Source: Ensifer adhaerens
GTDB taxonomy: Bacteria > Pseudomonadota > Alphaproteobacteria > Rhizobiales > Rhizobiaceae
Direction: 5' to 3'
Assembly: GCF_002007205.1 (NCBI RefSeq)
Contig: NZ_LAZS01000006.1
Location: 310,001 to 374,000 of the forward strand
DNA length: 64,000 nt
Positions 45,970 through 58,491 of the stretch are shown here, piece after piece (positions within the stretch are counted from its first letter, which is position 1; every line of letters starts with the position of its first letter). The notes beneath the pieces were generated by a model. That model made no database searches and was not told where the DNA came from. It saw only the letters and a list, made by a program, of their open reading frames with translations. The position numbers and the translations under genes are program-made.

Positions 45970-47109
45970 CTAGAGCAGTCCCCTCCCCGCAAGGTTGCGC
46001 ATCAGCGCAGCCGCGCCAAAACTCCAGGGCGCACATTCCGTCGAAAGCCTGACGGTATTGGTCAGCGAGCCGAGTTCGACATTGGTGATCGTCACCTTGT
46101 CGCCGAGCTTGTGGGTGAAGCCCTGGCCCGGTTCGTCGCGGTCCTCGACGGGCGCAAAGAGCGTACCCAAGAACAACATCAGACCATCGGGATACTGATG
46201 ATGCGGGCCGATCGTCTGGGCGACGAGATCGAGCGGATCGCGGCTGATTTCGGCCATCGAACTGCGGCCTGCCAGCCGGTAGCCGTCTTCGCCTTCGACC
46301 AACAGGCTGAGCTCGGCCCGGCGGACGTCGTCGATCGTGTAGCTTTCGTCGAAGAGCCGGATGAAGGGGCCGATGGCGCAGGAGGCGTTGTTGTCCTTGG
46401 CCTTGCCGAGAAGCAGCGCCGAGCGCCCCTCGATGTCGCGCAGGTTGACGTCGTTGCCGAGGGTGGCACCCCTCACCTGGCCGTCCGATGCAACCGCAAG
46501 CACGATCTCCGGCTCCGGATTGTTCCAGCGCGAGGCCGGGTGCAGGCCGACATCGGCGCCCGGGCCAACCGCCGAGAGCGCTTGCGCCTTGGTGAAGACT
46601 TCCGCGTCCGGGCCGATGCCGACTTCCAGATATTGCGACCAGACGCCCTCCTCGACCAGCGCGGCCTTGACGCGGGCTGCTTCCGGCGAGCCCGGCTTCA
46701 GGTTCCGCAGGCTGTCGCCAAAGACATCGGTGACACGGGCGCGGATCGCTTCGGCGCGGGACGCATCGCCCGCCGCCCGCTCCTCGATCACCCGCTCGAT
46801 CATGGAGCGGGCGAAGGTGACGCCGCAGGCCTTCACCGCCTGGAGGTCGCAGGGCGCGATGAGATGGATATGCGCCGGATCCGTCTCTTGCGCATGGATA
46901 TCCTCAAGCGAGAGGAGGTGTTCACCCGGTGCGGCGCGGGCATGATGAACCGGATCCGAAAGTTCGAGCAGGTCGCGCATGGTCGGCGTCACCCTGGAGG
47001 TGATGTCGTAGAGCGCGCCGTCCCGCAGGACGACAAGCGACGGCCCCGCGACATCCGGCCGCCAGACACGGCCGACAAAGGTGCCAGTGCGAAATGCCGG
47101 ATCGGTCAT
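45970..47109 (-). CDS. Fumarylacetoacetate hydrolase family protein
   Basis: A 379-aa enzyme of the FAH superfamily, which cleaves or dehydrates 2-keto or diketo acids with a divalent metal. The metal-site region is recognisable as SRWNNPEPEIVLAV (Glu-x-Glu) and GNDVNLRDIEGRSALLLGKAKDN (the Asp). ITNVELGSLTN is near the end. The N-terminal domain of about 90 residues has VKACGVTFARSM. The particular substrate, perhaps a sugar-derived 2-keto-3-deoxy acid, is not known. The ATG at 47109 has GGAGG nine bases upstream; a longer in-frame start lacks support. Confidence 0.85.
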   Translation of the reverse strand: MTDPAFRTGTFVGRVWRPDVAGPSLVVLRDGALYDITSRVTPTMRDLLELSDPVHHARAAPGEHLLSLEDIHAQETDPAHIHLIAPCDLQAVKACGVTFARSMIERVIEERAAGDASRAEAIRARVTDVFGDSLRNLKPGSPEAARVKAALVEEGVWSQYLEVGIGPDAEVFTKAQALSAVGPGADVGLHPASRWNNPEPEIVLAVASDGQVRGATLGNDVNLRDIEGRSALLLGKAKDNNASCAIGPFIRLFDESYTIDDVRRAELSLLVEGEDGYRLAGRSSMAEISRDPLDLVAQTIGPHHQYPDGLMLFLGTLFAPVEDRDEPGQGFTHKLGDKVTITNVELGSLTNTVRLSTECAPWSFGAAALMRNLAGRGLL

Positions 47110-47205
47110 GCCTTCCATCCTCCCGTAAGCGCCTATTTCTTGCAGCGGAAGGCGGGGCTGTAAAGCCGGCGGCGGCGCTCGGGCTTCCCCAGGGTTGCAG
47201 CGGCC

Positions 47206-47230
47206 GGAACATTGCAAATCCTCATACGTT
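47206..47230 (+). promoter_or_regulatory. EcfG/RpoE2-type promoter match
   Basis: GGAAC (47206-47210), a 16-bp spacer and CGTT (47227-47230) match the alphaproteobacterial general-stress consensus exactly. The next + strand gene starts about 139 bp downstream (47369). Confidence 0.6.
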
Positions 47231-47368
47231 TATGCTTATGCCACGCGCCCTCCGGGCGCCCTTGTCGCACGTTGTCGCGACGGCGCGAAATCCGGTGCCT
47301 CGACTGCCGGGAAGGTTCAGGAGCAGTCGCATCGAGGCCAGGAGGACGCCAGGAAAAGGATGAACGCA

Positions 47369-47776
47369 ATGAACCAGCACGAAGAGTTCAAGGAAAAGCC
47401 CGTGATCGATCCGGTGACCGGGCAGCCCTTGCCGCAGACGCAAACGCAGATGAGCGACGTGCCGCCTCCCGCCCGATCGGGGCGCAGCAACTGGCCGATC
47501 GTCATCATCCTGCTCGCCGGCCTGGTGCTGGCGCTGATCGCCTGGCTGCCGGCCGAACTCAGCCGCGACACAGCCGACACGGCAGCGCCGCCGGCGACCA
47601 CTGACCAGCCGGCGACCGGCACGACCACGGCGCCCGCAGACACGGGCACGGCTCCCGCCGGTGGGACCACGACCCAGCCGGCACCCGAAGCGACACCGCA
47701 GGCTCCTGAGACGCAGGGTTCCGCCCCGAATTCAACTCCGGGCACGACGCCCGGCATGACGCAGCCGGCGCAGTAA
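47369..47776 (+). CDS. Single-pass membrane protein with Thr/Pro/Ala-rich exterior
   Basis: A 135-aa hypothetical protein. Residues 1-40 are a soluble cytoplasmic part containing PVIDPVTGQPLPQ. One transmembrane helix follows (about 43-60, NWPIVIILLAGLVLALIAWL). The rest, about 75 residues, is a low-complexity Thr/Pro/Ala/Gly tail that should lie in the periplasm. The ATG at 47369 has AAAAGG nine bases upstream; another ATG three codons earlier is very close to that site. An EcfG-type promoter lies upstream, which hints at stress induction. Function is unknown. Confidence 0.65.
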   Translation: MNQHEEFKEKPVIDPVTGQPLPQTQTQMSDVPPPARSGRSNWPIVIILLAGLVLALIAWLPAELSRDTADTAAPPATTDQPATGTTTAPADTGTAPAGGTTTQPAPEATPQAPETQGSAPNSTPGTTPGMTQPAQ

Positions 47777-47886
47777 ACGGAGCGAGTGTCGTTCCAGTGG
47801 GCCGGAGCTTCGCTCCGGCCTTCCGACCTTCCCATTTTCGTGACGCATCGCGAGCGACGAAGCAGCGGGTTCCGTCGAGCGTCCGG

Positions 47887-48504
47887 TCAGTGCGGCCGGA
47901 CGGTTGCTGCGATCATCGTATCCCAGCCGCCGGCGGCGCAGTCGGCGATCGCGAGCAAGGTCTCCCGTGTGGCGCCGTCGCGCGCGCCTATCGACATGCC
48001 GTGCTGCAGCGAGGCGACATAGGCGGCGATCGCCGCGCAATCGACGCCCGCAGGCATGTCGCCTTCATCGACCGCGCGCTCGAAACGCCGCTCGAGCGCT
48101 GTCTGCTTCTCCAGCCGACGCCGTTTCAGGGCGCCGCAGACCTCCGGATCCCCACCTGCCATTTGCGGTGCCGACAGGACCACCATGCAGCCTCTCGGCT
48201 CGCCACGCCGGGTAAAATTCTCGGCGGTACGCCGCAAAAGGTCGTGCACTGCCGCCTTTGCCGTCGGAACGGTTTCAAGCTCATCCCAGATGCCGGCGCC
48301 ATCGGTGCGGCCATAGAGGTCCACGGCCTCGATGAAGAGCTCGGCCTTGCTGCCGAAAGCCGCGTAGAGGCTCGGCGGGTTCAGCCCCATGGCCCGGGTG
48401 AGATCGGAGAGCGAGGTGTTGTCATAGCCTTTGTCCCAGAAGAGCTGCATGGCGCTCGCAAGCGCTTCGTCCCTGGAGAAGTTGCGTGGCCGCCCGCGGC
48501 TCAT
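47887..48504 (-). CDS. TetR family transcriptional repressor
   Basis: A 205-aa regulator with an N-terminal HTH (about residues 10-55: TSLSDLTRAMGLNPPSLYAAFGSKAELF) and a TetR C-terminal ligand domain containing GEPRGCMVV. It is divergent from an SDR gene across 104 bp that contains two near-identical 16-bp operator-like sequences, one near each gene. It very likely represses both itself and the SDR gene. The ATG at 48504 has AAGGA upstream. Confidence 0.92.
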   Translation of the reverse strand: MSRGRPRNFSRDEALASAMQLFWDKGYDNTSLSDLTRAMGLNPPSLYAAFGSKAELFIEAVDLYGRTDGAGIWDELETVPTAKAAVHDLLRRTAENFTRRGEPRGCMVVLSAPQMAGGDPEVCGALKRRRLEKQTALERRFERAVDEGDMPAGVDCAAIAAYVASLQHGMSIGARDGATRETLLAIADCAAGGWDTMIAATVRPH

Positions 48505-48520
48505 CGTGGCTGATCCTTTT

Positions 48521-48536
48521 TGTATCAATCAATACA
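48521..48536. promoter_or_regulatory. Operator-like repeat, copy 1 (TetR side)
   Basis: TGTATCAATCAATACA has inverted arms TGTAT / ATACA around a six-base centre. It differs from copy 2 at one base and lies 17 bp before the TetR start codon. Confidence 0.6.
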
Positions 48537-48544
48537 TAAATCGC

Positions 48545-48550
48545 TTGACA
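48545..48550 (+). promoter_or_regulatory. Possible -35 element (TTGACA) for the SDR gene
   Basis: A perfect TTGACA lies between the two operator-like repeats, 64 bp upstream of the SDR start. No clear -10 was found at 16-18 bp; CATATA further on is too distant. Confidence 0.35.
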
Positions 48551-48577
48551 GCAGGTGGCAAGTTGTTTCTCCATATA

Positions 48578-48593
48578 TGTATCAATCACTACA
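48578..48593. promoter_or_regulatory. Operator-like repeat, copy 2 (SDR side)
   Basis: TGTATCAATCACTACA is the same 16-mer as copy 1 except for one base. It lies 57 bp from copy 1 and 16 bp upstream of the chosen SDR start, where bound repressor would block initiation. Confidence 0.6.
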
Positions 48594-48608
48594 AATATGG
48601 AGAAACCA

Positions 48609-49349
48609 GTGACGAATTTGAAGGACAAGGTGGCCCTGGTGACAGGCGGCAGCCGCGGCATCGGCGCGGCAATCGCAAAGCGGCTGGCGGCCGACGGCGC
48701 GACGGTTGCGGTGACCTACAGCCAGTCGAAAGAAAAGGCCGAGGCACTGGTGGCAGAGATCAAGAGGGATGGCGGCAGCGCGCTGGCGATAAAGGCGGAC
48801 AACCGCGATCCGGGGGCGGTCGAGGCTGCCGTCAAGACGGTCGCGGATAAACACGGCCGCATCGACATTCTCGTCAACAATGCCGGCGTCTTCGACGCCG
48901 GAACGGTGAACGAAGTGACCTCCGACGATTTCGACCGAACGATCGACGTCAATGTAAAGGCAGTGTTCCTGGCGACCCGGGCGGCAGCCGCGCATATGCC
49001 CGAGGGCGGACGCGTCATCTCGATCGGCAGCAATCTCGCCGCCCGCGTGCCCTGGCCGGGCATGAGCCTCTATGTGCTGAGCAAGAGCGCGCTGATCGGT
49101 TTCACCAAGGCGGTGGCGCGCGATCTCGGGCCGAAGGGCATTACCGTCAACATCGTCCATCCGGGCTCCACGGACACGGACATGAACCCCGCCAACGGCG
49201 AACTCGCGGATCCCCAGCGCGGCCTGATGGCGATCCCCCGTTTCAACGAGGCGGGCGATGTGGCGGGCGTCGTCGCGTGGCTTGCGGGGCCTGACGGGCG
49301 CAGCGTGACGGGCGCCGAGTTCACCATCGACGGCGGCACCAACGCCTGA
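48609..49349 (+). CDS. Short-chain dehydrogenase/reductase
   Basis: A 246-aa NAD(P)-dependent oxidoreductase with the classical SDR set: TGGSRGIG cofactor motif near residue 12, NNAG, the catalytic Ser in ISIGSN, and the Y-x-x-x-K of LYVLSKSA. The C-terminus ends GAEFTIDGGTNA, usual for 3-oxoacyl-ACP-reductase-like members. The GTG at 48609 has GGAG six bases upstream; an ATG at 48597 contains that site and is less likely. The divergent TetR gene probably controls it. The substrate is unknown. Confidence 0.93.
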   Translation: MTNLKDKVALVTGGSRGIGAAIAKRLAADGATVAVTYSQSKEKAEALVAEIKRDGGSALAIKADNRDPGAVEAAVKTVADKHGRIDILVNNAGVFDAGTVNEVTSDDFDRTIDVNVKAVFLATRAAAAHMPEGGRVISIGSNLAARVPWPGMSLYVLSKSALIGFTKAVARDLGPKGITVNIVHPGSTDTDMNPANGELADPQRGLMAIPRFNEAGDVAGVVAWLAGPDGRSVTGAEFTIDGGTNA

Positions 49350-49360
49350 TCAAGCAAAAA

Positions 49361-49402
49361 AACAGGGCCGGAAACACAGCTTTCGGCCTTGTTCTTTCGT
49401 GA
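49361..49402. terminator. Terminator between the convergent SDR and DadA-like genes
   Basis: An imperfect inverted repeat (AACAGGGCCGGAAA / TTTCGGCCTTGTT) is flanked by an A-run on the left and CTTTC on the right, so it may serve both strands. Confidence 0.6.
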
Positions 49403-49422
49403 TGCGACGGCTGCGGACCTCG

Positions 49423-50676
49423 TCAGGCCAGGAAGCGCTCCGGCCGGTAGGGCGCGATATCGATGACCGTCTTTTCTCCGGTCATTGCTTCCGCCAAAGC
49501 CCGGCCGGTCACCGGCCCGAGCGTCATGCCGTGATGCGCGTGGCCGAAGGCAAACCACAGGCCCTCGTGGCGCGGCGCCTTGCCGATAAGCGGCATCATG
49601 TCCGGCGTGCAGGGGCGCGCGCCCATCCACGGCTCTTCGTCGCGGCGTTCGGCAAGCGGGAAGAATTCGCGCGCCACCCGCTCGGCCCGCGTCAGCTGCA
49701 CCGGCGTTTTCGGCGCGTCGCGCCACGCAAATTCCGCACCGGTCGTCAAACGGATGCCACGCAGCATCGGCGCCAGGAAATAGCCCTTCTCGGCATCAAG
49801 TACCCAGTTGTTGAGCTGCGCGCCCTCCTCAGTGCCGTAGTGCATGTGGTAGCCGCGCTTGACCGCAAGCGGGAAATGATAGCCGAGCTTGCGGGTGACC
49901 GTGTCGGCCCAGGGGCCGAGCGCCACAACCACTTCGCGGGTCTCCAGCGGGCCCTCCGGGGTGGCGACGCGCCAACCGGGGCCTTCAAGAATATGTTCCG
50001 TCGTCGCCGCATCGCCGGAAACGAGCCGGCCGCCCAGCGACTGGAAGTAGGCGAGATAGGCCTTGTTGAGGCTGTGCGGATCGCGGATCGACCAGGGATC
50101 GCTCCAGCGCAGACCGCCGACGAGATCGGCCTTGATCGAGGGTTCCAGCGTCTTCAGTTCGCTCGTCGAAAGCTTCTGGTGGTTGACGCCGAAGCCGGCG
50201 GAAAGCTTTTCCGCCTCCTTGTAGGCAGCGTCGCGTTCCTTCTCCGTGCGGAACACCTTCATCCAGCCGTCCTTGCGGATGAGATCGCCGGCGCCGGAGG
50301 CCTCGATCAGATCCTGGTGCTCGGTGATCGAGTGCTCGATCAGCGGCGCATAGAGCTGGGCGATGCGTCGGTGCTGGGTAAAACCGGAGTGCCACCAGTA
50401 GCGCGCGAGGAACGGCACCAGGCCCGGAAGGGCGCGGAAATGGTAATGGGCGTCGATGGTGTTGTTGAGCGCATAGCGAAAGAGCGCGCCGAAATCATGC
50501 GGGAAGCCATAGGGAAAGACGCCTTCGCGCTGGATCAGGCCGGCGTTACCGTAGGAGGTTTCCTCGCCGGGACCGCGGCGGTCGAGTAGCACCACCGACT
50601 TGCCGCGGCGGGCGAGATGGATGGCGGTGGAAATGCCTACGATGCCGGCGCCCAGAACCACTACGTCAGTCTTCAT
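49423..50676 (-). CDS. D-amino-acid dehydrogenase-like FAD oxidoreductase
   Basis: A 417-aa flavoprotein of the DAO/DadA family that would oxidise D-amino acids (or a related amine) to 2-keto acids, passing electrons to the respiratory chain. The FAD motif is VVVLGAGIVGISTAIHLARRG near the N-terminus, and the DadA-like SYGNAGLIQREG follows. The C-terminal flavin contact is PDMMPLIGKAPRHEGLWFAFGHAHHGMTLGP. ATG at 50676 is preferred to one five codons earlier on family grounds. No racemase is adjacent. Confidence 0.9.
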   Translation of the reverse strand: MKTDVVVLGAGIVGISTAIHLARRGKSVVLLDRRGPGEETSYGNAGLIQREGVFPYGFPHDFGALFRYALNNTIDAHYHFRALPGLVPFLARYWWHSGFTQHRRIAQLYAPLIEHSITEHQDLIEASGAGDLIRKDGWMKVFRTEKERDAAYKEAEKLSAGFGVNHQKLSTSELKTLEPSIKADLVGGLRWSDPWSIRDPHSLNKAYLAYFQSLGGRLVSGDAATTEHILEGPGWRVATPEGPLETREVVVALGPWADTVTRKLGYHFPLAVKRGYHMHYGTEEGAQLNNWVLDAEKGYFLAPMLRGIRLTTGAEFAWRDAPKTPVQLTRAERVAREFFPLAERRDEEPWMGARPCTPDMMPLIGKAPRHEGLWFAFGHAHHGMTLGPVTGRALAEAMTGEKTVIDIAPYRPERFLA

Positions 50677-50702
50677 CTCAGGCTGCCCCATTGCTCGATC
50701 AA

Positions 50703-50732
50703 GACAAACCGCGGCTTTGCGTGAAGCCGCGG
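50703..50732 (-). terminator. Terminator downstream of the YqhA-like gene
   Basis: A 9-bp stem (CCGCGGCTT / AAGCCGCGG) read on the minus strand is followed by TTTGTCTT. Confidence 0.7.
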
Positions 50733-50740
50733 CACCAATA

Positions 50741-51244
50741 TCACTTCTTCTTCAGCGCATTCATGATCTGCTCGAGATAGCCGAGCAGTAAGGCCGAGAC
50801 GACAAAGGCAAGATGTATGATCGTCGCCCACATCAACTGCTCGCTCGAATATTGCTGCGCGTTTAAGAAGATCTGCAGCAGGTGGATCGAGGAAATGGCC
50901 ACGATCGACGACGCAACCTTGATCTTCAGGCTACCGGAATCGAGCTTGCCGAGGAAGGAGACCTCCGCATCGCCCTCGTCGAAGCGGCTGACGAAGTTCT
51001 CGTAACCGGAAATCATCACCATCACGATCAGGCTGGCCACGAGCGCTGCATCGATCAGGCCGAGCATTGCCAGAATCATCTGGGCATCGTCATAGACGAA
51101 CACCATGCTGGCGATCTTCAGCAGCTTGAAGGCGAACGAGATGCCGTAGAGGGCAAGTGCCGCGACCAGGCCTAGGTAGAAGATGACGAGAAGCCAGCGG
51201 CTGGACAGGATGATCCGCTCGACGAGCAGTTCCAGCGATTTCAT
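50741..51244 (-). CDS. UPF0114 (YqhA) family inner-membrane protein
   Basis: A 167-aa protein with about three to four transmembrane segments (roughly 14-38, 52-78, 104-126 and 138-158). Family-typical segments are SSRWLLVIFYLGL, MVMISGYENFVSR and KLDSGSLKIKVASSIVAISSIHLLQ. Function is not established. It is monocistronic, with its own terminator. Confidence 0.9.
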   Translation of the reverse strand: MKSLELLVERIILSSRWLLVIFYLGLVAALALYGISFAFKLLKIASMVFVYDDAQMILAMLGLIDAALVASLIVMVMISGYENFVSRFDEGDAEVSFLGKLDSGSLKIKVASSIVAISSIHLLQIFLNAQQYSSEQLMWATIIHLAFVVSALLLGYLEQIMNALKKK

Positions 51245-51400
51245 GATGTTCGATACCCCGGGGCGAAAACGACAATTGCGGCATCAATAGCCAAGCGGGC
51301 CAGCAAGGGCAAGCAAGACGATCCTGCCACCAAACACACCGAGGGCGGCTGTGACGCCGCCCGTTTCCTGTTTATGCCTATCAACTCAAATAGGGTCCGG

Positions 51401-51565
51401 TCAGCCGCGGCGCACCAGGCCAGCGACGAGCGAAATCACCAGGAAGACCAGGAACAGGAAGAAGAGGATCTGCGCGATGCCCGCGGACGTCCCGGCAATA
51501 CCCCCAAACCCAAGTACACCCGCTATGATTGCCACAACGAGGAAGACAAGCGCGTAGTATAGCAT
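51401..51565 (-). CDS. DUF1328 small membrane protein, copy 1
   Basis: A 54-aa membrane peptide of the DUF1328/YtjA family ([20 protein letters not shown] start, then a Gly-Ala turn [12 protein letters not shown] and a second hydrophobic helix ending GLVRRG). It spans the membrane twice. GGAGAATTGCT precedes the ATG. An exact EcfG-type promoter (51599-51623) lies 34 bp upstream, so it is probably a general stress gene. A related copy is at 55949-56119, also behind an EcfG-type box. Confidence 0.88.
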
Positions 51566-51598
51566 AGCAATTCTCCTTGCTTAAATCACTGCAATGCA

Positions 51599-51623
51599 AA
51601 CGCCAGAACTTTCACTTTGTTCC
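51599..51623 (-). promoter_or_regulatory. EcfG/RpoE2-type promoter of DUF1328 copy 1
   Basis: On the minus strand: GGAAC, 16 bp, CGTT. The -10 element ends 34 bp before the DUF1328 ATG. Confidence 0.75.
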
Positions 51624-51739
51624 AGTTATCGATCAAAAACCGCAGCGTAGAAATCCAGAGCTCCGCTCGACATTAGTATTTTGTTTACGATGAAAGACGA
51701 AAGAGTCCCAAATCGGCACGGTTTGCACCGGAAATGCCC

Positions 51740-51764
51740 GGAACCTTCGCAATACTCTGACGTT
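51740..51764 (+). promoter_or_regulatory. EcfG/RpoE2-type promoter of the 64-aa basic protein gene
   Basis: GGAAC (51740-51744), 16 bp, CGTT (51761-51764). The ATG at 51793 follows 28 bp later, ideal for a short leader. Confidence 0.75.
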
Positions 51765-51792
51765 CTCCATCCATGCAACACGCAGGGTCGAA

Positions 51793-51987
51793 ATGAAGAT
51801 GCCGACAGCACATATCTGGAAAACGGCGGTTGAGGCCGGACGGGAGCGGACGCATCTCTCCGATAGAAATCTTCATATCGGGAAGACGATGCGCGACCTA
51901 TACACCGACGGCGAAGAACAAAGCGCCAAGCTCCAGTCTCTGCTTGAAGAGCTTCGCAAGCGCGAGGCGATGGCAAAGAAGAAGTAA
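51793..51987 (+). CDS. Small basic hypothetical protein, likely stress-induced
   Basis: A 64-aa soluble protein (MKMPTAHIWKTAVEAGRERT start) with a Lys/Arg/Glu-rich C-terminal helix (LQSLLEELRKREAMAKKK). No family was recognised. It is supported as a real gene by AGGG before the ATG, an exact EcfG-type promoter just upstream, and a strong terminator just downstream, which together make a compact single-gene unit. Confidence 0.75.
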   Translation: MKMPTAHIWKTAVEAGRERTHLSDRNLHIGKTMRDLYTDGEEQSAKLQSLLEELRKREAMAKKK

Positions 51988-52007
51988 GCGCAATGTGCAT
52001 TGCAGAC

Positions 52008-52046
52008 AAAAGCCGCGGGCACATGCCACGCGGCTTTTGTTTTTTG
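52008..52046 (+). terminator. Terminator of the 64-aa protein gene
   Basis: A perfect 10-bp stem (AAAAGCCGCG / CGCGGCTTTT) is followed by GTTTTTTGG. It starts 20 bases after the stop codon. Confidence 0.9.
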
Positions 52047-52058
52047 GTATCGCCATTG

Positions 52059-52082
52059 ACGGAAGGAAGACCTTCCTTCCGT
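52059..52082. repeat. Inverted repeat at the end of the csbD-like gene
   Basis: ACGGAAGGAAG and its complement are separated by two to three bases. There is no T-run on either side, so it is more likely an mRNA 3'-end stabiliser than a terminator. Confidence 0.5.
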
Positions 52083-52089
52083 GAGCCGT

Positions 52090-52287
52090 CTAGCGGCGGG
52101 ACATCCAGTCTTCGATCTGCCGCTCCGCTTCATCCTGCGCAACGCCATATCGCGCCTGGATCCGGCCGGCGAGTTCTTCCCTGCGGCCATCGATGACGTC
52201 GAGGTCGTCATTGGTCAGCTTGCCCCATTGCGCCTGGACCTTACCCTTCAGCTCGTGCCATTTGCCTTCAACAATGTCCCAGTTCAT
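52090..52287 (-). CDS. CsbD family stress protein
   Basis: A 65-aa hydrophilic protein matching CsbD/YjbJ along its whole length ([20 protein letters not shown] start, [21 protein letters not shown], then ERQIEDW near the end). CsbD-type proteins are general-stress-induced in many bacteria, but their molecular role is unknown. It is 45 bp downstream of the gene at 52333 on the same strand and probably shares that gene's EcfG-type promoter. Confidence 0.92.
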
Positions 52288-52332
52288 TTGATACCCTTTC
52301 CGTAGATGCGGTCGCCTTGGGCAACCGTGAAA

Positions 52333-52656
52333 TCAGTTGCGAGCCTTGGCGCCGCTGTCATGACGCGCAGCAACGGCGTAGCTGCCATCATCGACCTTGA
52401 CCTCGACATGCAGCCGGCCGGGTGCCGTCACCTGCCACTCGATGATCGCGTCTTCCACGAACAGGGCCGGATCGACTTCCGCACAGGCACCATAGGCATG
52501 CTTGAAGGTCTCAGCCGTCGCCTCGATCGCGGGCGAGAGCAGTTCGCGACATTCGTCTGCGGTCTCGAAAGCCACAGTCGGCGCCGGGACTTCGCGGCAG
52601 GCCTCTGTCGTCTGCATGCAGCCGACCAGGACCATGATGGCGGCAATGTGTTCCAT
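52333..52656 (-). CDS. Hypothetical secreted or lipid-anchored protein
   Basis: A 107-aa protein. A short hydrophobic N-terminus (MEHIAAIMVLVGCMQT) resembles a signal with a weak lipobox (LVGC). Four more Cys follow (in TEACREV, DECRELL, GACAEV), and the C-terminal part is beta-like (IIEWQVTAPGRLHVEVKVDDG). GGGAG lies eight bases before the ATG at 52656. An exact EcfG-type promoter is at 52692-52717. Its probable operon partner is the CsbD-family gene. No family was recognised. Confidence 0.65.
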   Translation of the reverse strand: MEHIAAIMVLVGCMQTTEACREVPAPTVAFETADECRELLSPAIEATAETFKHAYGACAEVDPALFVEDAIIEWQVTAPGRLHVEVKVDDGSYAVAARHDSGAKARN

Positions 52657-52691
52657 TCGCATGCTCCCTCTTCAGTCAAACTCCAACTGCA

Positions 52692-52717
52692 AACGGCAAT
52701 GCATGACCTGAGGTTCC
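52692..52717 (-). promoter_or_regulatory. EcfG/RpoE2-type promoter of the hypothetical-csbD operon
   Basis: On the minus strand: GGAAC, 17 bp, CGTT, ending 36 bp before the ATG at 52656. Confidence 0.75.
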
Positions 52718-52741
52718 GCGAGCGGACGCGAAATATTTCCT

Positions 52742-52767
52742 GGAACCTTGGTGCCGGCTTGCGCGTT
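52742..52767 (+). promoter_or_regulatory. EcfG/RpoE2-type promoter match, rightward 1
   Basis: GGAAC (52742-52746), 17 bp, CGTT (52764-52767). It lies only 25 bp from the leftward box. Confidence 0.55.
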
Positions 52768-52799
52768 TGCGCCGCCCACCTGCAGATGTAGATCGGTCG

Positions 52800-52824
52800 G
52801 GAACCTGCGTTCGTCGGAAGCGTT
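52800..52824 (+). promoter_or_regulatory. EcfG/RpoE2-type promoter match, rightward 2
   Basis: GGAAC (52800-52804), 16 bp, CGTT (52821-52824). Confidence 0.55.
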
Positions 52825-52883
52825 TGGCGGGCATCCACAACGCACAACCGCAGCCGCCATGAGACGCCAACCTCTCAGGCGAT

Positions 52884-52908
52884 GGAACAAAAACGCCCCG
52901 TTGTCGTT
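52884..52908 (+). promoter_or_regulatory. EcfG/RpoE2-type promoter match, rightward 3
   Basis: GGAAC (52884-52888), 16 bp, CGTT (52905-52908). It overlaps a GTTGTCGTT hairpin arm. Confidence 0.55.
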
Positions 52909-52994
52909 TTCGCAACGATAACAAGCGCTGCGACCGCGGCCGAGCGACGGAGGAGATACTCGCCAGGCAAGGACACACCACAGGGGCTCGCTCG

Positions 52995-53159
52995 ATGCGA
53001 GCGCTGAAGCTGGTTAAGGTAACATCGAAGATCGATCAGGATCGCATGGCATCGGGCAAGGGCTATGCCTCATTGTCGTCATTCTGTTCGTCACCAGTCG
53101 CGGGCAAATCGATTTCACCGAAAATTGATTCTCAGTTCAACAAAGCAACCTTCGGATAG
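52995..53159 (+). CDS. Possible 54-aa small ORF
   Basis: ATG at 52995 (GGGG eight bases upstream) to TAG at 53157-53159 encodes a Ser/Lys-rich 54-aa peptide without a recognised domain. It is the only ORF of this size between the rightward EcfG-type boxes and the lipoprotein gene, and ends nine bases before that gene. It may be coding, or the region may be an untranslated leader. Confidence 0.25.
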   Translation: MRALKLVKVTSKIDQDRMASGKGYASLSSFCSSPVAGKSISPKIDSQFNKATFG

Positions 53160-53168
53160 GAACGCGTC

Positions 53169-53417
53169 ATGAAGAAGATACTTATCGTAGCAAGCCTGAT
53201 CCTCCCCCTCGCGGCATGCACGCAGACAGAAAAGGGCGCCGCGATCGGCGCAACCGGCGGTGCCATCGTCGGCGGTGCGGCGACGGGCAACGTCAGGGGT
53301 GCGGCCGTGGGCGCGGCCATCGGCGGCGTCGCCGGTGCGCTCATCGGCAACGCCAACGAACCGGGCCGCTGCATCTATCGCGACCGTTACGGCCGCCGCT
53401 ACGAAGCCGCCTGCTGA
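53169..53417 (+). CDS. Glycine-zipper lipoprotein
   Basis: An 82-aa outer-membrane-type lipoprotein. The signal peptide ends in the lipobox LAAC, with Cys17 the lipidated residue. The mature part is a Gly/Ala-rich zipper (GAAIGATGGAIVGGAATG, then AAIGGVAGALIG), as in the Rick_17kDa/SlyB-like family, and ends with RCIYRDRYGRRYEAAC. Such proteins are often envelope-stress-induced. GGATAGGAACGCGTC lies before the ATG. The three rightward EcfG-type boxes 260-430 bp upstream may drive it. Confidence 0.88.
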   Translation: MKKILIVASLILPLAACTQTEKGAAIGATGGAIVGGAATGNVRGAAVGAAIGGVAGALIGNANEPGRCIYRDRYGRRYEAAC

Positions 53418-53432
53418 TCGGCCAATCTATGA

Positions 53433-53456
53433 GGAAACGGGCAACCGCCCGTTTCC
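53433..53456. terminator. Hairpin between the lipoprotein gene and nepR
   Basis: A perfect 10-bp stem GGAAACGGGC / GCCCGTTTCC with a 4-base loop is followed by TTCCTTCC on the + strand. It lies in the 48-bp gap between two convergent genes. Confidence 0.65.
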
Positions 53457-53465
53457 TTCCTTCCC

Positions 53466-53684
53466 TCAGAGCGGACCTCGCCCCTTCGACGAGCCTTCGG
53501 CCGCAGCTTCCGCTTGATCCAGTTTTTCAAGAAGATTGAGAAAGAGTTCCGGGACGGGCTCCTGCTCCAGCGACCGATAGAGCGCCTTCAAGCTGGCGCC
53601 GATCGAGCCGCCGAAATCGAGCGCTTCGGCAGTGCCTCCGCGCTGTTGGCCTACGCCGCCGTGCTTTCCGGTTTCTTCATCCAT
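53466..53684 (-). CDS. nepR: NepR-type anti-sigma factor
   Basis: A 72-aa protein whose C-terminal half carries the NepR domain (IGASLKALYRSLEQEPVPEL, then FLNLLEKLD). NepR holds the EcfG sigma factor inactive until phosphorylated PhyR takes its place. It is divergent from phyR, as is usual. No EcfG sigma gene lies next to it, so it may be the second pair of the kind called RsiA2/RsiB2 in S. meliloti. The ATG at 53684 has GGGA six bases upstream. Only a degenerate EcfG-like box (GGAAT-N18-CGTT, 53786-53812 minus strand) is seen ahead of it. Confidence 0.88.
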   Translation of the reverse strand: MDEETGKHGGVGQQRGGTAEALDFGGSIGASLKALYRSLEQEPVPELFLNLLEKLDQAEAAAEGSSKGRGPL

Positions 53685-53872
53685 GCTGCGTCCCACCACC
53701 GCTTAGTCCTTCACGGCTTTTGCTGCCCTTGCGAAATCGCCGGCACACCGTTTCGAACACGTCCCCCATTTGCTCTAAGCCGAAAAACGTGTTCAAAACA
53801 TCCATCTATTCCGCCCCATACCCCCTATCCTCAGAAATCAAACGAATCGCATTGCACGTAAGGAAGTCGTTG

Positions 53873-54670
53873 ATGTCACTTTCGACCCGGATTGCGCCAC
53901 ACCTGCCCTTTCTGCGCCGCTACGCGCGGGCCGTTACCGGCTCGCAGGCCGCAGGCGACGGTTATGTGGCCGCTGTTCTCGAGGCCCTGATCGAGGATAT
54001 CAGCCTCTTTCCAGAGGCCTCGAACGACCGGATCAGCCTCTACAAGCTGTTCTGCTCGCAGTTCGAGAAGGTCTCGATCGATCGCGGCGAAAACGCCTCG
54101 CCGTTCGCATGGGAGCAGCAGGCGGCCGCCAATCTCTCGCTGATCGCGCCGGCCCCGCGCCAGGCCTTTCTGCTCGTCTCGGTCGAAGGCTTCTCGATCG
54201 CCGATGCGGCCGAGGTCATGGGCCAGAGCCAGGCCGAATTTTCGAAGCTGCTGACGCTCGCGTCGGAGGACATTTCGCGCCAGGTCGCAACCGACGTCCT
54301 GATCATCGAGGACGAGCCGCTGATCGCGCTCGATATCGAGGACATGGTGACAAGTCTCGGCCACCGCGTCACGGGGATTGCGCGTACCCATGGCGAGGCG
54401 CTAGATCTCTACCGCAAGACCTCTCCGAAGATGGTTCTGGCCGACATCCAGCTTGCCGACGGCAGTTCGGGGATCGATGCCGTCAACGAGATCCTCACGC
54501 AGGCTGCCGTGCCGGTGATCTTCATCACCGCCTTCCCCGAGCGGCTCCTGACCGGCAAACGGCCGGAACCGGCCTTCCTCGTGACCAAGCCTTTCAATCC
54601 GGACATGGTGAAAGCGCTGATCAGCCAGGCGCTGTTCTTCGACGAGCACGCGCGCTCGGCCCGCCGCTAG
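53873..54670 (+). CDS. phyR: General stress response regulator PhyR
   Basis: A 265-aa response regulator with an inverted layout. Residues 1-130 form a sigma-factor-like domain (sigma2- and sigma4-like helices; SVEGFSIADAAEVMGQSQAEF is the sigma4 HTH mimic). Residues 140-260 form a receiver with the acidic pocket IIEDEP, the phosphorylated Asp in VLADIQLADG and the Lys in VTKPFNPD. Phosphorylated PhyR binds NepR by sigma mimicry and frees EcfG. The ATG at 53873 has AAGGAAG upstream; 51 earlier in-frame codons are not family-like. Confidence 0.95.
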   Translation: MSLSTRIAPHLPFLRRYARAVTGSQAAGDGYVAAVLEALIEDISLFPEASNDRISLYKLFCSQFEKVSIDRGENASPFAWEQQAAANLSLIAPAPRQAFLLVSVEGFSIADAAEVMGQSQAEFSKLLTLASEDISRQVATDVLIIEDEPLIALDIEDMVTSLGHRVTGIARTHGEALDLYRKTSPKMVLADIQLADGSSGIDAVNEILTQAAVPVIFITAFPERLLTGKRPEPAFLVTKPFNPDMVKALISQALFFDEHARSARR

Positions 54671-54680
54671 GCAGGCACAG

Positions 54681-55946
54681 CTATCCGGGTAGCTGGCGTT
54701 CCGGCGGCTGCTCGCTGATTTCCTCGACGATGGCAAGAACGATGAGGGAGAGCGGCAGCGCCAGCATGGCGCCGACCGCACCCCACATCCAGGTCCAGAA
54801 GACGATGGCGATGAACACCAGGAACGGGTTGACTTCCAGCTCGTTGCCGAGGATGGCCGGAATGGCGAGGTTCTCCATCGCCAGGTGGACGACGAAGAAG
54901 GCAATAGCCGGCGCCAGGGCCAGCCACAGGACCTCATGCGTCATCAGCCCGCCCACGAGCAGGCTGAAGGTCATGACCGTCACGCCGAGATAGGGAATGA
55001 AGCTCGAGACGAAGGCGAACAACCCCCAGAGCGGGGGCATGGCGAGCCCGCCAACGAGCGCAATGATCATGGTCATGGTTCCGAGCGCCAGATAGATCAG
55101 GCTGGCGATCGAGAAGTATCGCGCCAACGCGTCCTCGATGCCGTTCATGATGCGAATGGCGCTGAGCCGCCGCTCACGGCTGCCAAAGGCAAGGATGACC
55201 GCCTTGCGCAGTTGCAGCCGCCCGAGCAGGAACAGGCCGAGCGCCGCCAGAAAAATCAGCGTCTGCACCAGGGCGGGCGTCAGCCCGGCTGCGGTGGCGG
55301 CGAGCATCGGGCCGGCATTCTTCATGACGGAGTCGGCGATCGCGTCATTGCCGACGCTGCGCGCGACCGCCAGCCGTAACCACTCATACCGCTCGATAAA
55401 CGGCATGACGCGGGCCACCACGCTTTCAGCGAGTTTCGGCGCCTCGGAGGCGAGCGCCGTCAGGGGACCGAGCAACGCGTTGACGAGCCATGACAGCCCG
55501 GTGACGAAAATCATCGCCAGCAGCAGCCCCCCGAAAATCGGCGGCAGACCATAGCGTGCCAGTCCGTCGGCCGTTCGGCCGAGCACGACGCCGACGACGA
55601 TCGCAAACGTGATCGGCAGAAGGATCGTTTCCATGGCGTAGATCGCCGCGCATGCGGCAATGGCAAAGAGGCCGATGATGCTCCAGGCGACCATGAGGTC
55701 GATGCCGTCACGCCGCGGTGTGGACGATGGCGCTGCCGTCGCGACCGCCGCCTCCTCCTCGACGATCCGCCTTGCGCGCTTGCGCTGCTGGGCGACACTG
55801 GCCCGCTTTAGCGTAGCCGCGATCACGCCCCGCTTCCCTTCAGAAAGGGCCGCGTGCGTTTCGTCCGTGTTTCCTTTTAGCAAGTCAGGCCGCCCTGCCG
55901 TCTGCTCCGGTCCGGCTTGCGGCGCATCGCGTGGATGATCATGCAC
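54681..55946 (-). CDS. AI-2E family (PerM-like) transporter
   Basis: A 421-aa membrane protein with about eight helices, of the family once linked to autoinducer-2 export and also including Na+/H+ antiporters and PerM. A charged ~75-residue N-terminus precedes the first helix. Typical segments are ITFAIVVGVVLGR, FVTGLSWLVNALLGPL, SFIPYLGVTVMTFSLLVGGL and the C-terminal PAILGNELEVNPFLVFIAIVFW. The GTG at 55946 starts two bases after the DUF1328 stop; the in-frame stretch farther upstream lies inside that gene and is rejected. The operon has an EcfG-type promoter. Confidence 0.88.
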   Translation of the reverse strand: MHDHPRDAPQAGPEQTAGRPDLLKGNTDETHAALSEGKRGVIAATLKRASVAQQRKRARRIVEEEAAVATAAPSSTPRRDGIDLMVAWSIIGLFAIAACAAIYAMETILLPITFAIVVGVVLGRTADGLARYGLPPIFGGLLLAMIFVTGLSWLVNALLGPLTALASEAPKLAESVVARVMPFIERYEWLRLAVARSVGNDAIADSVMKNAGPMLAATAAGLTPALVQTLIFLAALGLFLLGRLQLRKAVILAFGSRERRLSAIRIMNGIEDALARYFSIASLIYLALGTMTMIIALVGGLAMPPLWGLFAFVSSFIPYLGVTVMTFSLLVGGLMTHEVLWLALAPAIAFFVVHLAMENLAIPAILGNELEVNPFLVFIAIVFWTWMWGAVGAMLALPLSLIVLAIVEEISEQPPERQLPG

Positions 55947-55948
55947 GG

Positions 55949-56119
55949 TCAGTGGTGTTCCGGCGGGAAGATGTGCAGCGTCAGCGACAAGAGGCCGAGA
56001 CCCAGGATGATGACGAGCAAGGTATGGGCGACACCTGCGGCGGTGTAGGGAACGAGACCGAAACCGATCATGACACCCGCCAGAAGAAGGACGCAGACCC
56101 GGGGCAGCCAGTAAAGCAT
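55949..56119 (-). CDS. DUF1328-like small membrane protein, copy 2
   Basis: A 56-aa membrane peptide (MLYWLPRVCVLLLAGVMIGF start, then a TAAGVAH turn and a second helix). It aligns with the DUF1328 peptide at 51401-51565 through MLY, AGV-x-x-GFG, the Ala-Gly turn and the SL segment. GGAGG six bases before the ATG is a strong ribosome site. It is translationally coupled to the AI-2E transporter (two-base gap) and has an exact EcfG-type promoter 58 bp upstream. Confidence 0.8.
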   Translation of the reverse strand: MLYWLPRVCVLLLAGVMIGFGLVPYTAAGVAHTLLVIILGLGLLSLTLHIFPPEHH

Positions 56120-56176
56120 AACAGTCCTCCCAATCGTGGCGGCCGGTTTTGGCCATTTTATTTGGATCGGACAATT

Positions 56177-56201
56177 AACGGCCCAAGCGCCGTTTGGTTC
56201 C
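56177..56201 (-). promoter_or_regulatory. EcfG/RpoE2-type promoter of the DUF1328-AI-2E operon
   Basis: On the minus strand: GGAAC, 16 bp, CGTT, with the -10 ending 58 bp before the ATG at 56119. Confidence 0.72.
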
Positions 56202-56221
56202 GCGCAGGGAGCTCAAATGCG

Positions 56222-56260
56222 AAATGAAAACGCCGCCGGACGACCAGGTCCGGCGGCGTT
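56222..56260 (-). terminator. Terminator of ridA
   Basis: A perfect 13-bp stem (AACGCCGCCGGAC / GTCCGGCGGCGTT, 56229-56260) is followed on the minus strand by TTTTCATTTC. Confidence 0.88.
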
Positions 56261-56294
56261 GAAGTAAGCAACGGAAAAACTCGTGGCGCCGGCC

Positions 56295-56642
56295 TTAGGC
56301 GGCAGCGGCGACGACGATGACCTCGACGAGGTATTCCGGGGTCGCGAGCTTGGCTTCGCCGGTGGCGCGCGCCGGGGTGTTGCCCTGCGGTGCCCAGGCG
56401 TCCCAGACCGAGTTCATCTTCGGGAAGTCAGCCATGTCGGCGAGCCAGATGGTGGCCGAGAGGATGCGGGTCTTGTCGGTGCCGGCGAGCGCCAGAAGAC
56501 GGTCGACTTCGGCAAGCGCCTGCTTCGTCTGCGTCACGACATCGTCACCGGCATTGCCGACCTGGCCGGCGAGGTAAACGGTGTTGTTGTAGACCACGGC
56601 CTGGCTCATACGGGGGCCGGTTTCGAAACGCTTGATTTCCAT
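56295..56642 (-). CDS. RidA family protein (enamine/imine deaminase)
   Basis: A 115-aa YjgF/YER057c/UK114-type protein, which typically hydrolyses reactive 2-aminoacrylate-like enamines. The start MEIKRFETGPRMSQAVVYNN and the middle VYLAGQVGNAGDDVVTQTKQAL are characteristic. The C-terminal catalytic-Arg region reads NTPARATGEAKLATPEYLVEV, with the Arg present. The ATG at 56642 has AGGAAC upstream; 54 further in-frame codons upstream are not family-like. It lies after the dpp operon behind a terminator. Confidence 0.9.
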   Translation of the reverse strand: MEIKRFETGPRMSQAVVYNNTVYLAGQVGNAGDDVVTQTKQALAEVDRLLALAGTDKTRILSATIWLADMADFPKMNSVWDAWAPQGNTPARATGEAKLATPEYLVEVIVVAAAA

Positions 56643-56758
56643 GAACGTGTTCCTGAGGTTGGGCCGAACGGTCGTCCGGCCAAAAAGCGGCTGCCCGCCG
56701 CCCAGAGGCGAGAAAAGAAGACGGCGCGACACCTCTACACCATCATGTCTCCGAGTCA

Positions 56759-56789
56759 AAGAAGCCGGGCATTGGCTGCCCGGCTTCTT
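56759..56789. terminator. Terminator of the dpp operon
   Basis: A perfect 13-bp stem (AAGAAGCCGGGCA / TGCCCGGCTTCTT) with a 5-base loop, 33 bp beyond the dppF stop. T-richness is modest on both sides. Confidence 0.75.
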
Positions 56790-56821
56790 CTGTTTCTTCA
56801 GCAAAAATCAGCGGTGACGGA

Positions 56822-57652
56822 TCAGGCCGCCTGCTTCTTCCTGGCAAGGCGCGCCTTGATGCTTTCGACGTCGGCGCGCGGCGTCGCCGCAAACAGCGTC
56901 TTGGTATAGCTGTGTTTCGGGTCGGCGAAGACCTCGTCACGGCTACCGTATTCGACGGCCTCGCCGAAATACATCACCATGACGTCGTCGGCGATGTAGC
57001 GCACGACCGAGAGGTCGTGGCTGATGAAGACGTAGGTGAGCTTCAGTTCGTCCTGCAGGTCGGCGAGCAGGTTCAACACCTGTGCCTGAACCGACAGGTC
57101 GAGCGCCGATACCGGCTCGTCCAGCACCAGGAGCTTCGGGTTCAGCATCAGCGCGCGCGCAATGGCGATACGCTGGCGCTGGCCGCCGGAGAACATGTGC
57201 GGGTAGCGATTGAAGTGCAGCTCGGTGAGACCGACCTTCTTCAGCATCGTCATCGCCCGGTCGCGACGCTCGTCGGCGGGGGTATTGGTGTTGATGATCA
57301 GCGGCTCCATCAGGATGTCGCCGATCTTCTGGCGCGGGTTGAGCGAGCCATAGGGGTTCTGGAAGACAATCTGCACCTTGCGGCGCATCTCCGGCGTCAT
57401 GTCGCCCTTGGCGATGTCGATCTTCTTGCCTTCGATCAGCAGTTCGCCCGAGGTCGCCGGGTCGATCAGAGTGAGGATGCGGCCAAGCGTTGACTTGCCG
57501 CAGCCGCTTTCGCCGACGATCGCCAGCGTTTTGCCCTCTTCGACGTTGAAGCTCACGCCTTTCAGGGCGTGAACGGTCTTCGCCTTTTTGATGAGGCCGC
57601 CGGGGATATGGTAGTCACGCACCAGATTGCGCGCTTCGAGGATCACGCTCAT
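56822..57652 (-). CDS. dppF: Dipeptide ABC transporter ATP-binding protein DppF
   Basis: A 276-aa ABC ATPase. Walker A is GESGCGKST, the signature is FSGGQRQRIAIARAL, and Walker B is LLVLDEPVSALD, followed by the His switch (SHDLSVV). The N-terminus HIPGGLIKKAKTVHALKGVSF is typical of the second ATPase of oligo/dipeptide systems. It overlaps dppD by four bases. Together with DppD it powers peptide uptake. Confidence 0.93.
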   Translation of the reverse strand: MSVILEARNLVRDYHIPGGLIKKAKTVHALKGVSFNVEEGKTLAIVGESGCGKSTLGRILTLIDPATSGELLIEGKKIDIAKGDMTPEMRRKVQIVFQNPYGSLNPRQKIGDILMEPLIINTNTPADERRDRAMTMLKKVGLTELHFNRYPHMFSGGQRQRIAIARALMLNPKLLVLDEPVSALDLSVQAQVLNLLADLQDELKLTYVFISHDLSVVRYIADDVMVMYFGEAVEYGSRDEVFADPKHSYTKTLFAATPRADVESIKARLARKKQAA

Positions 57653-58491
57653 TGGGCCGCTCCTTCATCGACGAAGAGTTCGGAGATCGTCGGCAGACGA
57701 TCGCCGGTCGCGTTGTCAGGCAGCGCGGCCAGAAGTGCGCGCGTGTAGTTGCTCTTCGGGTTTTCAAAGAGCGTCAGCACGTCGGCCTCTTCCATCTTGC
57801 GGCCCTTGTACTGCACGACCACCCGGTCGGCGGTTTCGGCGACCACGCCCATGTTGTGCGTGATCATGATCAGGCCCATCTTGTGCTCGGCCTGCAGCTT
57901 CATCAGCAGGTCGAGGATTTGCTTCTGGATCGTTACGTCAAGCGCCGTCGTCGGCTCATCGGCGATGAGCAGCTTCGGATTGCAGGCGATCGCGATCGCG
58001 ATCATCACGCGCTGGCACTGGCCGCCCGACATCTGGTGCGGGAAGTGGCCGAGCCGCTCGGCCGGATCGGGGATGCCGACCGCCTCGAACAGTTCGATCG
58101 CCCGCTTGCGACGACCGGCCTTGTCGAGACCCATGTGGATGCGCAGCACTTCCTCGATCTGGAAGCCGACCGTAAAGCACGGGTTGAGGCTGGCGATCGG
58201 CTCCTGGAAGATCATGGCAATGTCCTTGCCGACGATCTTGCGACGTTCGTTCGCCGACATGCCGAGCAGGTCGCGGCCGTTGAAGGCGAGCTTGTCGGCG
58301 GTGACCTTGGCCGTCCATGGCAGAAGCCCCATGGCAGCCAGCATCGACACGGACTTGCCCGAGCCGCTTTCGCCGACGATCGCGAGCACTTCGCCTTCAT
58401 GGACCTTCATCGACACGCCGTTGACGGCGCGGAAGGGACCGGAGGCCGTCTGGAATTCGACGACCAGGTTTTCGATTTCGAGAAGCGCCAT
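57649..58491 (-). CDS. dppD: Dipeptide ABC transporter ATP-binding protein DppD
   Basis: A 280-aa ABC ATPase with Walker A GESGSGKS, the signature MSGGQCQRVMIAIA, Walker B LLIADEPTTALD and switch His (ITHNMGVV). It is shorter than E. coli DppD (about 330 aa), lacking much of the C-terminal oligopeptide extension and its cluster-binding cysteines. It starts two bases after dppC. Confidence 0.93.
   Translation of the reverse strand: MALLEIENLVVEFQTASGPFRAVNGVSMKVHEGEVLAIVGESGSGKSVSMLAAMGLLPWTAKVTADKLAFNGRDLLGMSANERRKIVGKDIAMIFQEPIASLNPCFTVGFQIEEVLRIHMGLDKAGRRKRAIELFEAVGIPDPAERLGHFPHQMSGGQCQRVMIAIAIACNPKLLIADEPTTALDVTIQKQILDLLMKLQAEHKMGLIMITHNMGVVAETADRVVVQYKGRKMEEADVLTLFENPKSNYTRALLAALPDNATGDRLPTISELFVDEGAAQ

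Follow-up and report, generated by a model that had tools for sequence, protein, structure and literature searches.

A conserved EcfG-type promoter island of Ensifer adhaerens and its probable NepR homologue, a candidate brake of the general stress response

Two NepR-like proteins have been described as feedback regulators of the general stress response, NepR2 of Sphingomonas melonis and META2p0735 of Methylobacterium extorquens, and an RsiA-like open reading frame (ORF) beside rpoE5 of Sinorhizobium meliloti was also known beforehand. Here, we report on small64, a protein of 64 amino acids that is very probably a further, diverged NepR homologue, and on the island of EcfG-type promoters in which it is encoded. 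The island is located in a stretch of 64,000 nucleotides from Ensifer adhaerens (contig NZ_LAZS01000006.1, positions 310,001 to 374,000; G000:C19:310001-374000 in our numbering), which we refer to as the window, and the genome comprises 6,874,104 bases in total. Coordinates refer to the window unless they carry the number of another contig (C4 or C17).

NepR2 (#1448) of S. melonis Fr1 is a small NepR-like protein of the EcfG regulon, which acts as a negative feedback regulator and co-precipitates PhyR (PMC6599016). Its knockout was reported to raise and its overexpression to lower EcfG activity, residues L31 and F35 are needed, and its induction by stress was slightly under the cut-off used by the authors (PMC6599016). 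The protein was found via residues and predicted helices and not by BLAST (PMC6599016). Similarly, small64 is NepR-like and its gene is preceded by an EcfG-type box, but whereas S. melonis NepR2 adjoins ecfG, small64 is part of an island that surrounds a second, ecfG-less pair of regulators. Furthermore, small64 has a conserved N-terminal segment and the position corresponding to Y36/F35 is not always aromatic. A second precedent, MexAM1_META2p0735, is a NepR homologue with an EcfG-dependent promoter, which co-precipitates PhyR and lowers the response upon overexpression; binding of EcfG was not seen in the tests described, and the authors propose the term anti-anti-anti-sigma factors (PMC4814048). 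META2p0735 belongs to another genus and another locus than small64. The S. meliloti ORF, which is unannotated and runs antisense to SMb21687, shows that an additional RsiA-like protein had been reported in this group before, but it is located downstream of rpoE5 and outside the island (PMC6180224). All three are likened to small64 by their descriptions only.

The regulators next to small64 resemble RsiA2/RsiB2 of S. meliloti, a second NepR/PhyR pair that has no ecfG gene of its own (PMC3616915, PMC4814048). In the window, the pair consists of nepR2 (53466-53699, minus strand; Pfam E 1.9e-11), the start codon of which is uncertain, and phyR2 (53873-54670, plus strand), coding for a protein of 265 amino acids with a sigma-like domain and a receiver domain (Pfam PhyR_sigma2 E 2.5e-25, Response_reg E 2.4e-11). 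It is a second pair, since the other of the two NepR genes in the genome is found on C17 between phyR1 and ecfG. While ecfG follows nepR1 on C17, nepR2 is followed by a convergent lipoprotein gene. Compared with a canonical phyR/nepR-ecfG locus, the protein families are the same, but the window lacks ecfG and a box in front of nepR2 or phyR2, and contains instead a set of small genes headed by boxes; the canonical locus on C17 has one box on each strand (C17:5945 and C17:5975). Based on gene content and the DUF1328 neighbour SMc00796 (PMC6637203), the window pair is most likely the counterpart of rsiA2/rsiB2, with S. meliloti represented by its published descriptions and not by a comparison of DNA. 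For rsiB2 (SMc00794), the 5' intergenic region was reported to give a signal dependent on rpoE2 that the coding region did not follow (PMC3616915). In addition to this pair, the island encodes small64 as another NepR homologue.

small64 as a NepR homologue and its proposed role

The small64 gene (51793-51987, plus strand) starts 28 bp downstream of an EcfG-type box (N16; 51740-51764, plus strand), where a box is an exact match to GGAAC-N16/17-CGTT. With PhyR2 as query, 80 loci were fetched, and further genomes with small64 were located by a profile of the 64-amino acid protein. Conservation was scored in 35 loci that carry the gene, namely the window (45-60 kb), L033-L049, L051, L052, L123, L124 and L138-L150, which amount to 366,674 bases and are related rather than independent. 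Shorter or repeated records (L050, for which L149 was preferred, L116-L122 and L125-L136) had been excluded beforehand, as had L137, which carries a canonical nepR. All 35 loci have a box in the 100 bp preceding small64. In 11 of 11 close small64 pairs, some of which were cut to a common length and left unaligned, the ratio of nonsynonymous to synonymous substitution rates (dN/dS) was between 0.05 and 0.32; therefore, the frame codes for a constrained protein, and small64 is under purifying selection.

Profile comparisons connect this protein with NepR. An alignment of 19 small64 sequences (A1) matched an alignment of 22 NepR2-type sequences (A2) in hhalign with a probability of 90.7 and a score of 34.5 over 49 columns, whereas 600 column-shuffled controls reached at most 19.6 and the reversed NepR alignment 12.0. 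With 14 orthologues from outside Ensifer (A3), the match to A2 had a probability of 95.6 and an E-value of 1.1e-8. At E 0.001, the A1 profile had matches in 22 genomes among 297 from the family, 21 times through small64 (own genome included) and once through a canonical nepR. At E 0.01, the A3 profile had matches in 69 genomes among 397 from the order, and its second match in the own genome was the canonical nepR1 (E 1.7e-6). Inspection covered the best 29 of the further A3 matches with loci, and each of them was a nepR gene flanked by phyR and ecfG. A core of I-G-x-T-[LMI]-[RK] ... L-L-x-x-L is common to small64 and NepR, and the position matching L32 of NepR is L, M or I in all 35 small64 proteins.

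Several observations weigh against the homology or against the role proposed below. At the position of NepR Y36, a residue required in S. melonis, Y or F occurs in only 20 of the 35 proteins, and the E-[PG]-x-P linker is found in only three of them, as opposed to 22/22 NepR2-type proteins (Q being allowed for E in the latter). The A2 profile gives the window small64 only 5.8 bits, while the small64 of L052 receives 29.2 bits (search space 35 in both cases), and small64 is missing from the matches of this profile in the own genome even at E 10. Pfam NepR matches 1 of the 19 A1 members (E 0.1) and 10 of the 14 A3 members (best E 0.029); because all of these matches are below the curated cut-off, we class small64 as a diverged homologue and not as a member of Pfam NepR. 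Searches of the PDB ranked NepR first and second, but weakly (E 0.22 and 0.33), or first and third (E 0.0078 and 0.012), in the latter case together with a GCN4 construct that is unrelated and reached 0.012 as well. The AlphaFold models of the monomer are of low confidence, with a mean predicted local distance difference test score (pLDDT) of 69.8 and 70.0 and a predicted template modelling score (pTM) of 0.33-0.35. Taking both sides together, we consider it very probable that small64 is a diverged NepR homologue. Other families can be set aside: Spore_III_AB, DarP/YjgA and others matched weakly and in 1-4 of 19 members, with Spore_III_AB below its cut-off, and NCBIfam, searched with A1 only, gave nothing convincing. 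The window small64 itself has a single Pfam match, which is below its cut-off, and small64 is not named by the family libraries searched. The sequence-only reading of the window, made from the DNA letters and a list of ORFs, had regarded the locus as a local store of uncharacterised stress peptides. Small uncharacterised genes headed by boxes are indeed present, but the NepR homology of the 64-amino acid protein means that a probable regulator is encoded among them, so that the island is more than a store of stress peptides.

We propose that small64 is induced by EcfG and acts on the PhyR-NepR switch as a negative-feedback partner, a reading to which we assign a probability of roughly 0.6. The conserved promoter and neighbourhood and the residues at the L32 position are in its favour, whereas the residues at the Y36 position and the rarity of the E-[PG]-x-P linker are not. 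In this reading, stress-activated EcfG, which is encoded elsewhere in the genome, would read about six transcription units of the island and switch on small64 via the box at 51740, its only evident promoter. small64 would then compete with NepR for activated PhyR and take the place of NepR. The displaced true NepR would recapture EcfG, and the general stress response would be damped by a stress-induced brake. Binding to PhyR in place of NepR is suggested because no promoter other than the EcfG box is evident, the NepR core is kept and the E-P-x-P linker is mostly absent; both this binding and the sign of the effect are predictions drawn by analogy. One might speculate further that proteins of the small64 type are PhyR decoys that derive from NepR and are induced by stress. 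As anti-anti-anti-sigma factors, they would form a family so far unnamed in the libraries searched, which would be kept together with the island in Ensifer, Sinorhizobium and several related genera as a built-in off switch of the general stress response, with a rebuilt interface replacing the E-P-x-P linker. This extension is tentative, and we would put it at slightly less than even odds.

Alternatively, small64 could bind EcfG directly and thereby be a third genuine anti-sigma factor, in which case the target of the feedback would be the sigma factor instead of PhyR. Its descent from NepR would fit such a function, and the NepR proteins of S. meliloti were both reported to bind RpoE2 as well as both PhyR proteins (PMC4814048). 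However, we regard this as unlikely: the E-[PG]-x-P linker is confined to the three small64 proteins mentioned above although every NepR2-type protein has it, and the diverged paralogues META1p1275 and META2p0735 bound PhyR and not EcfG in the reported tests (PMC4814048). A little less likely still is that small64, while derived from NepR, has left the switch and serves another partner, for example another extracytoplasmic function (ECF) sigma factor or a target of the H-I-W-K segment, as a stress effector. The N-terminal H-I-W-K segment and the N-L-H-I-G motif are conserved in the family and have no NepR counterpart, which would suit a different partner, as would the Y36 position, which is aromatic in no more than 20 of the 35 proteins. 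On the other hand, small64 and PhyR2/NepR2 share an island throughout the examined loci, and small64 retains the two-part NepR core. We favour the role as a feedback partner of PhyR-NepR over both alternatives.

EcfG-type boxes of the island

The box pattern corresponds to an established consensus, as the sequence-only reading had assumed; GGAAC-N16-CGTT has been published for EcfG1 of Rhizobium etli (PMC3892343). The window contains nine boxes. All seven that had been listed before are exact at their coordinates and strands, and two more are located at 47206-47230 and 54821-54845, both on the plus strand. One hundred dinucleotide-preserving shuffles of the window gave a mean of 1.13 and a maximum of five boxes, in agreement with the earlier estimate of about one per 64 kb. 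Throughout the genome, for which the full list was compiled by splitting the pattern (74 + 57 matches), there are 131 boxes (79 on the plus and 52 on the minus strand) versus 160 matches to the reversed pattern used as control. The motif is not above background genome-wide, and because the control is the commoner of the two, lone matches mean little.

The island differs from this background, as had been anticipated. Eight boxes are found within 5 kb, where the rate in the rest of the genome predicts 0.0895 (Poisson P 9.5e-14, uncorrected for the choice of place); no other 5-kb stretch of the genome is as dense, and the runner-up among separate 5-kb windows has four boxes. At a scale of 20 kb, the region C4:513-533 kb equals the island with nine boxes each. 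This second cluster lies outside the window (C4:513246-533115; L114, L182), its nine exact boxes fall within 20 kb, and a 68-codon ORF at C4:529441, CsbD-like by eye, has a box 39 bp upstream.

The related genomes bear out the expectation that the boxes are conserved: the 35 loci contain 202 boxes and nine reversed-pattern matches, and the boxes keep fixed distances to genes. Besides small64, the 109-amino acid gene (22/22 loci), the 56-amino acid gene (23/23) and the proline-rich gene (5/5 scorable loci) have a box within 100 bp upstream in every case, and so does the DUF1328 gene in 31 of 34 loci (33 of 34 within 300 bp). For the lipoprotein gene, a box is present within 300 bp in 33/35 loci, at 205-278 bp in 30 of those 33. 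csbD has a box of its own in just 3 of 16 loci. For the AI-2E gene, 15 of 29 loci have a box within 300 bp, which is partly that of the 56-amino acid gene. Boxes within 300 bp are absent from the DAO-type oxidase gene (35 loci), the UPF0114 gene (18), the Rid gene (23) and the ABC gene (19). Reversed-pattern matches were found within 300 bp of 5 of 34 DUF1328 genes and of no other scored gene. The spacer alternates between 16 and 17 bases among clades while both hexamers are constant, only exact boxes being counted. The 17 Ensifer/Sinorhizobium loci L033-L049 have the same island with lineage-wise losses; for instance, csbD, the 109-amino acid gene and their box are jointly absent in L038-L041, L046 and L047.

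It is highly improbable that base composition gave rise to the boxes by accident and that they cluster by chance, since, although they are no commoner genome-wide than the reversed control and chance may well account for those at 52800 and 54821, the density within 5 kb, the 202 against nine matches and the fixed distances rule it out as the source of the main boxes. We are almost certain that this is a conserved promoter island of the EcfG (RpoE2) regulon around the second, ecfG-less PhyR2/NepR2 pair. The conservation of the promoters is directly observed, whereas transcription of the units by EcfG is predicted from it. With this, the proposal of an EcfG-type island with several small uncharacterised genes beside nepR/phyR is supported, but the regulators themselves do not share its promoters: neither nepR2 nor phyR2 has a box within 300 bp upstream in any of the 35 loci (0/35 each), which rules the boxes out as their drivers, and rsiA2 of S. 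meliloti was reported to be independent of rpoE2 (PMC3616915). Four points had not been noticed before: that this is a second pair and lacks ecfG, the NepR homology of small64, the conserved box at 47206, and the location of the boxes at 52742 and 52884 at places where relatives carry genes not found in Ensifer.

Neighbouring genes and orphaned boxes

The box at 47206-47230 (N16), outside the range covered earlier, precedes a proline-rich ORF of 154 codons (47312-47776, plus strand) and is located 7-96 bp upstream in the five scorable loci. For four further boxes, distances of 28-58 bp to small genes had been given; the boxes are there, and measured from the end of the -10 element to the start codon the distances are 33, 28, 29 and 57 bp. 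The first of these boxes (51599-51623, minus strand, N16) belongs to the gene of a small DUF1328 membrane protein of 54 amino acids (51401-51565, minus strand; Pfam E 7.6e-17), and the second to small64. The third (52692-52717, minus strand, N17) is followed by the gene of a 109-amino acid protein with no Pfam match at E 0.01 (52333-52662, minus strand) and, as second gene, by that of a CsbD-like protein of 65 amino acids (52090-52287, minus strand; Pfam E 9.1e-19). The fourth (56177-56201, minus strand, N16) heads the gene of a 56-amino acid membrane-type protein (55949-56119, minus strand).

The genes at 51401-51565 and 55949-56119 had both been assigned to DUF1328. This holds for the former, the sole DUF1328 gene of the genome at E 0.001, but not for the latter, which has no Pfam match at E 0.01 and is only weakly DUF1328-like (E 3e-5 in a two-sequence BLASTP of the two proteins). 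In E. adhaerens OV14, two genes are named DUF1328 (PMC6637203), the second of which may correspond to the 56-amino acid gene. In Shinella (L053, L054, L055 and L057; 4/4 viewed), a PhyR2-like gene lies beside a DUF1328 gene headed by a box, with no match to nepR2 or small64, and among the 29 canonical phyR-nepR-ecfG loci from other genomes (L151-L179), 17 have a DUF1328 gene near phyR, which is frequently accompanied by a box. The neighbourhood of DUF1328 and phyR may be older than the second pair.

Judging from gene order and strand, the gene of an AI-2E family permease (scanned part 54681-55829, minus strand; Pfam E 1.8e-31) is probably transcribed behind the 56-amino acid gene as an operon. 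The box at 54821-54845 is inside its coding frame in antisense orientation and is probably due to chance; among 25 loci viewed, only L035 has a plus-strand box at this place. Likewise, the box at 52800-52824 (plus strand, N16) has no counterpart in L033-L037 or L150. The box at 52742-52767 (plus strand, N17), which has no obvious gene, has counterparts in L033-L035 and L150, and in L139 a box at this place heads an ORF of 315 codons, alpha/beta-hydrolase-like by eye.

The box at 52884-52908 (plus strand, N16) is 260 bp upstream of the gene of an 82-amino acid glycine-zipper lipoprotein (53169-53417, plus strand; Pfam Gly-zipper_Omp E 1e-8). In 14 non-Ensifer loci, the lipoprotein-facing box at this place is followed by a DUF3309 gene of 50-51 codons (Pfam E 5.2e-24 for one gene; tblastn E 2e-25 or better in 14/35 loci). 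In the 21 Ensifer/Sinorhizobium loci no DUF3309 gene was found there, and 20 of these 21 keep the box within 300 bp of the lipoprotein gene. The window has a possible DUF3309 remnant of 20 residues (E 0.58), and loss of the gene is likely here. The only DUF3309 gene of the genome (C4:536242-536391) is near the C4 cluster, with no exact box close by. The simplest account of the boxes at 52742 and 52884 would be that they were orphaned, the genes being lost and the promoters kept, with 52884 now serving the lipoprotein gene. A small RNA or leader peptide between this box and the lipoprotein gene was considered and rejected; there is no Rfam match at the gathering score (46000-58000), and the longest leader ORFs differ among Ensifer loci. 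Within the leader (52909-53168), a block of 24 bases is identical in six aligned Ensifer leaders, the remainder being gapped. The lipoprotein and nepR2 genes converge on a 10-bp hairpin with perfect pairing and a loop of four bases (53433-53456), which was seen by eye and is absent from the list of the terminator scan; this hairpin is perhaps a terminator shared by both genes, and read-through of the lipoprotein transcript may run antisense to nepR2.

Taken together, the island provides a large set of orthologous EcfG promoters, some of which have apparently outlived their genes. We found no description of small64 or the island in the open-access literature searched, while subscription papers and supplements may hold an earlier notice. 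Loss of rsiA1 in S. meliloti was reported to be lethal through overactivation (PMC4814048). Being another NepR homologue, and one whose EcfG-type promoter is conserved, small64 beside the second NepR/PhyR pair would be a concrete candidate for a brake on the general stress response in well-studied plant symbionts.

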